Source of the DNA: Acidobacteria bacterium 13_1_20CM_2_55_15
GTDB taxonomy: Bacteria; Acidobacteriota; Terriglobia; 20CM-2-55-15
Direction of reading: 5' to 3'
NCBI GenBank assembly: GCA_001920875.1
Contig: MNKP01000054.1
Span: forward strand, 1-52,193
DNA: 52,193 bases
Under the pieces are notes generated by a model. It worked only from the letters and a program-made list of their open reading frames with translations, ran no database searches and had not been told where the DNA came from. Shown here piece by piece: positions 26,393-52,193 of this stretch. Made by a program: the position numbers and the translations under genes. Each line of letters begins with the position of its first letter. The stretch's first letter is position 1.

Positions 26393-26411
26393 GGGCGTTG
26401 GCTGGTGATGC

Positions 26412-26617
26412 ATTCCCCTCCTCGCAGAGGAGGGCGCGAAGCGCGAGCCCGATAGGGCGAAGCCTCAAGAGTGGATGCGCCGAGCTAAGCGAGGCGCAGA
26501 CGGGGTGGCGCGAAGCGCGAGCCCGTCAGGGCGAAGCCTCGATTGAAGACCGGCGAAACCTTTCGGCCGGGACCACCCCGGCGCTACGCGCCACCCCTGC
26601 TCTGCGAGGAGGGGAAT
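26412..26617. repeat. Long palindromic element, ATTCCCCTCCTCGCAGAG family (copy A)
   Basis: 18-bp perfect terminal inverted repeats (26412-26429 / 26600-26617); internal 33-bp near-identical direct repeat 26434-26466 and 26508-26540. Confidence 0.85.
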
Positions 26618-51426: not shown

Positions 51427-52005
51427 CTATAGGTTCGCGCCCAAGATCACAACGGCTTGTGTCATCGGCAGCAGCCCCGTGGCGTTCCAGAAATTGAACA
51501 TAAATAGCGTGATCAAATCTGCGTGCCGGGCGTTGTCCGGATCGTGTTGCGCGTAGCGTTTCTTAACGATCTCGTGGCACACCTTGAAGAGCGATTTCTG
51601 GAGTTTCGCGATGCTCTTGCCGGGCTTGATTTTGACGTCGACCGCGCGATTACAGAATTCGTTCCAGAAACCGGGATCCGTAATGAGCCGGCGCGGCTCT
51701 TTGTGCGCCAGTCCCGCCCGTTCGGCGACGCGGCAAAGCGTGTAGTACATGGTCCGGTTCAAGCCTACGAAGAACGGCACGATCTCCTGCCTGCGGGCCC
51801 CTTGGTCATTTCCCAGAGCGTTTTGGGCAGCGCGGACCGTAATGTCGACCAGAACATTGCCCTGGATCGGAGGCCTGCCCAGGTGGAGGTGCAGTTGGGC
51901 TTCAAGGGAGATCGCCTCGAGAAGCTGATCCGACAGAAGAACTTCCTCGCCACGCAATTGAAGCAGCCCGCGCGATAATCCGAATTGAACCCCCGATGGG
52001 TGCAT
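51427..52005 (-). CDS. Hypothetical protein, 192 aa
   Basis: ATG at 52005 preceded on minus strand by AGGAGG at ~8 nt spacing; no family recognised. Confidence 0.6.
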   Translation of the reverse strand: MHPSGVQFGLSRGLLQLRGEEVLLSDQLLEAISLEAQLHLHLGRPPIQGNVLVDITVRAAQNALGNDQGARRQEIVPFFVGLNRTMYYTLCRVAERAGLAHKEPRRLITDPGFWNEFCNRAVDVKIKPGKSIAKLQKSLFKVCHEIVKKRYAQHDPDNARHADLITLFMFNFWNATGLLPMTQAVVILGANL

Positions 52006-52038
52006 ATCCGCATCCTCCTATATTAAGGATCGCGATTG

Positions 52039-52193
52039 GGCGCATCTTCCTTCGAGAAATTCGCTTTTGCTCATAATTGAACGCGCCTTCCTTCGAAGTA
52101 GTCCCATTTGTTCGCAATTGAACGTGCCTTCCTTTGAGCATTTCTTTTTTGCTCGTGATTGGACGCGGCTTCTTGCCGGCATTTCCCATTTGC
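52039..52193. repeat. Degenerate 41-bp tandem repeat, at least 3.8 units, running off the window
   Basis: Units 52039-52079, 52080-52120, 52121-52161, 52162-52193(partial); each full unit ends ..(a/c)(a/g/t)(a/t)attg and starts (g/a)(g/a)cg..cttcctt. Confidence 0.75.

Follow-up and report, generated by a model that had tools for sequence, protein, structure and literature searches.

The 52,193-bp stretch of acidobacterial DNA analyzed here (the window) ends in a degenerate tandem repeat, raising the question of whether this sequence belongs to the gene beside it or represents a more widespread type of repetitive DNA. The array (52033..52193, not assigned to a strand) has a period of 41 bp and the consensus RACGCGCCTTCCTTCGAGMAATTCCCNTTTGCTCGTAATTG. 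It comprises three full units of exactly 41 bp on the plus strand, located at 52039..52079, 52080..52120 and 52121..52161, and a partial fourth unit of 32 bp (52162..52193, plus strand), as given in the original prediction. Its units are about 68% alike, with a self-identity of 0.675 at a shift of 41 bp and 0.671 at a shift of 82 bp, whereas dinucleotide-preserving shuffles (n = 2,000), each scored at its best shift between 10 and 79, averaged 0.38 and did not exceed 0.47. None of the 2,000 shuffles thus reached the value of the array, which dispels the initial concern that its alignment might be no better than that of shuffled sequence. The last 155 bp are the most periodic stretch of this length in the whole window; the region ranking second, at 26396-26580, consists partly of a 7-bp GCGCGAA repeat. 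Tandem Repeats Finder, run on the window, did not report the array because its units are too divergent.

The limits of the array are set by a gene on one side and by the assembly on the other. To the left of unit 1, the pattern extends over no more than about 6 bp (52033-52038, CGATTG). A search with R1, a sequence-only model described below, found no further unit there, and the decayed unit suggested to precede position 52039 is thus not supported. To the right, unit 4 is cut by the contig end, which lies exactly at 52193. The window represents the whole of contig C6, one of the 211 contigs that make up the incomplete 3.44-Mb genome G000, and the true length of the array is therefore invisible.

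The adjoining gene (51427..52005, minus strand) encodes a protein of 192 amino acids and has its start codon at 52003-52005 and a Shine-Dalgarno sequence (AGGAGG) at 52012-52017. The array begins about 28 bp 5' of the start codon and abuts the ribosome-binding site, with positions 52006-52032 forming the leader of the gene. Searches of Pfam, NCBIfam and PHROG returned no match for the gene product, and relatives were found only within the genus, in G004 at 72% identity, together with a 33% paralog, and as fragments in G002 and G003. A tie between the array and this orphan gene had been suggested at the outset. However, the array is absent upstream of the G004 ortholog, and other arrays of the same kind, described below, adjoin unrelated genes. 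The gene does not define the array; its 5' region may have been shaped by it incidentally. Where G000 carries the array, the region upstream of the G004 ortholog contains a single 36-bp palindrome, CACCCGGATGGAAATTTCGCGATTCCCATCCGGGCG (L025:3660-3740, contig C202), which is a possible candidate for the seed of an array. In addition, a family of FN3-like proteins of about 200-216 aa (L059:3632-4282, L137:5819-6463 and L025:3781-4368) is encoded near the arrays on contigs C91 and C258 and beside the G004 ortholog. Neither the orphan gene nor the FN3-like gene (near C91, C258 and C202) is generally associated with arrays, and both links were rejected.

Searches of other loci and genomes, as originally proposed, revealed a second array of the window type in G000 and related arrays across the genus. 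The former, found with a degenerate unit pattern, lies at C188:9110-9265 and contains four units on the opposite strand, whose consensus is 78% alike to that of the window units. The R1 model, built from the eight units of these two arrays, recovers both of them and matches four successive units in the window with E values of 4e-8 to 9e-4 (35.1, 34.9, 34.7 and 21.5 bits for units 1 to 4). It also points to two more distant arrays in G000, one with 10 units of 41 bp (C91) and one with about 6 units of 42 bp (C16). Searches with the C91 and C16 units uncovered arrays in G001, G002, G003 and G004, all of the same genus; in other genera, they yielded only short weak matches (best E ~0.002) and no repeated array. 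Of the six genus genomes, five (G000-G004) thus contain arrays, with about 20 in addition to the four just described. They range from 2 to about 14 units, as seen in one genome per species, with arrays often cut by contig ends (C6, C846, C673 and C382).

The unit length of these arrays is nearly constant. It falls between 40 and 42 bp in 24 of the 25 distinct arrays, with a best-fitting period of 41 bp in 10, 42 bp in 10 and 40 bp in 4 of them. The sole exception is a near-identical 46-bp tandem array in G002 (L088:1117-1403, contig C715), one of four arrays encountered inside loci fetched for other reasons; the remaining three have units of 40-41 bp. An autocorrelation survey, which excluded the window and covered all periods between 12 and 82 bp in 1.24 Mb of genus DNA selected without regard to repeats, gave the same picture. 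It identified eight further arrays lacking an obvious coding frame (G003: C23 twice, C34, C36 and C29; G001: C203; G004: C198 and C74), all with a period of 40-42 bp. Most of the other matches had periods divisible by 3, in keeping with coding repeats, and one was a 79-bp two-copy duplication.

Several lines of evidence bear on the taxonomic range of the arrays. A scan of 351 kb from two sister genera of the family revealed no array, compared with about 2.3 expected at the density observed in the genus, so that restriction to the genus is suggestive only. Among 84,980 GTDB genomes, the exact hairpin pattern had five isolated matches in unrelated phyla, about the number estimated for chance, and two subfamily patterns searched in 299 genomes of the class matched only genus genomes, which is weak evidence because the patterns are narrow and gave one match each. 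No homology was detected to phages, plasmids or viral contigs in the collections searched. A full-text literature search returned no description of such arrays, an absence that is not proof of novelty. The part of the Solibacter usitatus genome paper that was available reports many short repeats and does not describe this class.

All 21 mapped arrays are intergenic according to codon-based gene calls, and their neighbors vary, including genes for an SDR oxidoreductase, an amidase and a sugar epimerase. Among the 16 arrays for which both neighbors were called, nine lie between co-directional genes, six between divergent genes (C16 being uncertain) and one between convergent genes, such that 15 are located upstream of at least one gene. 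Arrays have, moreover, been gained or lost at orthologous loci. When orthologous intergenic DNA is aligned, G000 and G001 lack an array where G003 has one of its C23 arrays; the inserted segment spans about 400 bp and lies between the copies of an imperfect 18-bp direct repeat. Similarly, the array downstream of a conserved SDR gene in G000 (C188) has no counterpart in G001, G004 and G005, and G002 carries an array of unrelated 42-bp units about 430 bp further downstream. Finally, C91 and C258 contain related units near one conserved gene in two species, at different points.

Gain and loss at orthologous loci and non-coding head-to-tail units in the range of ~10-100 bp are both hallmarks of minisatellites. 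Of the options initially offered for the window array, this one is now the best supported. We therefore propose, at a probability of roughly 0.6, that the window shows the visible end of a truncated array belonging to a family of palindromic minisatellites, or bacterial satellite DNA, that is specific to the genus and whose members spread to new intergenic sites and expand locally, a reading that does not need a function for the neighboring gene. The genus arrays resemble bacterial intergenic minisatellites and VNTRs, such as the mycobacterial MIRU-VNTR loci, in their degenerate, non-coding tandem units of tens of base pairs and their dispersed intergenic positions. They differ, however, in that their units are palindromic and keep a near-constant length (40-42 bp at 24 of the 25 loci) despite differing sequences. 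Bacterial minisatellite loci are normally catalogued individually, with a unit length particular to each, and one MIRU family shares a sequence.

The palindromic character of the family is evident from a comparison of each array with its own reverse complement. In 18 of 21 cases, the array outscores at least 192 of 200 column-permuted copies in this comparison, so that dyads follow one another at intervals of about half a unit (20-21 bp). Most units hold one or two inverted repeats, as exemplified by unit 1 of C188, which forms the hairpin CGAGCAAA-TCCCG-TTTGCTCG. The exceptions are C34, marginally C203 of G001, and the window array itself, for which 90 of the 200 column-permuted copies scored as well. 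Its lack of significant self-complementarity is explained by the decay of its hairpins, although unit 3 has kept a GAGCA...TGCTC inverted repeat; judging from its relatives C188 and C91, the window array was probably palindromic as well.

Dyads at this spacing could represent sites for a dimeric DNA-binding protein, which units of about four helical turns would place on one face of the DNA, as in sopC, with possible roles in nucleoid organization or in the silencing or regulation of nearby genes. A repeat-coating protein of this kind is the main rival to the minisatellite reading, even if we regard protein-binding arrays as rather unlikely. It would account for the locking of the unit length near 42 bp, and the position of 15 of the 16 arrays upstream of genes is consistent with a regulatory role. 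The closest precedent is sopC (parS_F), the F-plasmid centromere, in which a 43-bp repeat occurs twelve times in tandem and every copy contains a 16-bp inverted repeat to which a ParB dimer binds (PMC9178275). The family as a whole shares this combination of tandem ~43-bp units and inverted repeats, which is not significant for the window array alone. However, sopC occurs at one locus per plasmid, has one conserved sequence and adjoins sopAB, whereas the genus arrays occupy many chromosomal loci and fall into several unrelated unit subfamilies. A strong variation of the unit sequence among arrays of one genome is not expected for the sites of one sequence-specific protein, and the presence of an array at a given locus is not conserved. 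Neither parA nor parB was found among the neighbors searched (genes for the protein without a match, the SDR oxidoreductase, the FN3-like protein, the amidase and the sugar epimerase). The phased binding array considered in the original prediction thus gains from the dyads recurring every 20-21 bp in the family but loses from the weak helical phasing of A/T, which at 10.3 bp reaches a z of only 1.6 for AA/TT and -0.1 for A+T. The sole strong A/T signal has a period of 6.9 bp and is confined to some arrays, chiefly those of the AAAAGCGATTTCC subfamily. It corresponds to an alternation of A/T content every 7 bp, the sixth harmonic of the unit (z ~11 over all arrays), seen in the 42-bp AAAAGCGATTTCC subfamily (L060, L061, L129, L130, L131, L132, L134 and L135) and also in L210 and L252.

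The hairpins could alternatively act at the RNA level, as small RNAs, RNA sponges or terminators composed of hairpin clusters, the last of which have been described (PMC8355165). Consistent with this idea, units such as unit 1 of C188 fold strongly (-10.4 kcal/mol, z -6.5). However, most of the window units show no stronger folding than shuffles, RNAalifold detected no structure in the eight window and C188 units, compensatory changes within arrays showed no excess over shuffles, and Rfam gave no match above the gathering score (best E 9.6). No promoter- or terminator-like site was found at the window array, which speaks against the small-RNA source proposed earlier, and a terminator role does not fit with only one of 16 arrays lying between convergent genes. 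We thus consider transcribed hairpin arrays improbable. A riboswitch was rejected because it fails at least one tested feature.

Palindromic, dispersed and intergenic repeats are also characteristic of REP/REPIN/BIME elements, which are GTAG- and CGTC-tagged palindromes (PMC3733652), and the arrays could thus be tandem REP- or MITE-type elements moved by a Y1 transposase. The ~400-bp insert at C23 with its flanking direct repeat would agree with such an origin. However, the REP family of a given genome is defined by a single conserved sequence, and the arrays have neither such a high-copy sequence nor conserved element ends; they are instead tandem, with a locked period. Of 20 arrays tested for flanking direct repeats, only C23 has a clear one, with a weaker one at C247. 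The Y1 transposase domain (PF01797) is present in G002-G005, but it was not found in the array-bearing genomes G000 and G001, which are incomplete (82% and 88%), and may therefore not be obligatory. These features make a transposon origin still less probable than a role in RNA.

Regular spacing and the ability of 42-bp arrays to remain open in frame, as reflected by a weak open frame in three of them, could suggest CRISPR, TIGR or other guide-RNA arrays or a protein-coding repeat. We consider this class of explanations very improbable for the family, and for the 41-bp arrays, CRISPR, TIGR and coding readings are ruled out by the sequence itself. Periods of 40 and 41 bp break any reading frame, and the whole unit drifts together rather than as an alternation of identical repeats and unique spacers, bearing out the earlier view of a non-coding, non-CRISPR array of constant unit length. 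No annotated system was found beside the arrays.

How, then, could minisatellites with one unit length and many sequences have arisen? We infer that a short palindromic seed would arrive at an intergenic site and expand in place through slipped-strand replication or unequal exchange, with hairpin formation favoring slippage. Neighboring units would then be homogenized while the inherited unit length stays, so that arrays would diverge from each other yet retain this length. The units fall into AAAAGCGATTTCC-type 42-mers, CTTCGAG-type 41-mers (including the window), CCATGCRGGTG-type 41-mers, 40-mers and singletons. Unit types are common to different loci, and many pairs of unit consensuses are significantly similar, linking several subfamilies above the level of shuffles; this similarity suggests common descent for some pairs only. 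Repeats of a higher order, with a length of 82-84 bp, occur within arrays, a feature typical of satellites. Like eukaryotic satellite DNA, the arrays keep their unit length while they diverge and homogenize, but they are small (2-14 units), intergenic and bacterial. The tandem repeats of archaeal Borgs, in the part of their description available (PMC9879509), are likewise rapidly evolving, abundant and specific to one lineage, whereas Borgs are extrachromosomal elements and the genus arrays are palindromic, fixed in unit length and located on chromosomal MAG contigs.

Slippage alone does not account for the maintenance of 40-42 bp across unrelated-looking units. The occurrence of one unit length, rather than one sequence, at many loci points to a constraint on length itself, imposed by DNA geometry, a binding protein or the expansion machinery, which is a testable idea. 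It is tempting to speculate that a dedicated mechanism of the genus, an enzyme or a coating protein, could build or maintain tandem palindromic arrays whose unit stays fixed at about four turns of the DNA, in a largely sequence-independent manner, as a bacterial analogue of satellite or centromeric chromatin, although we view this as unlikely. In practical terms, the arrays would serve as typing markers for this uncultured soil lineage, and they explain why the assembly breaks at some points, the end of the window probably being one of them.

Other repetitive elements were noted in the genus. G003 contains many copies (93-100% identical) of a quasi-palindromic, REPIN- or MITE-like element of ~108 bp (L129:6711-6819 on contig C14, with copies in L169, L171, L175 and L178). 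A dispersed palindrome, ~TGTAG(G)CG(C)GGTCTATGACCGCGC with the core GGTCTATGA, is found near several arrays of G002 and G003 (flanks of L268, L270, L131 and L134). Furthermore, a Solibacter-like acidobacterium is suggested by the 87 matches to TIGR03435 (Soli family) in G004, compared with 0-17 in its congeners.
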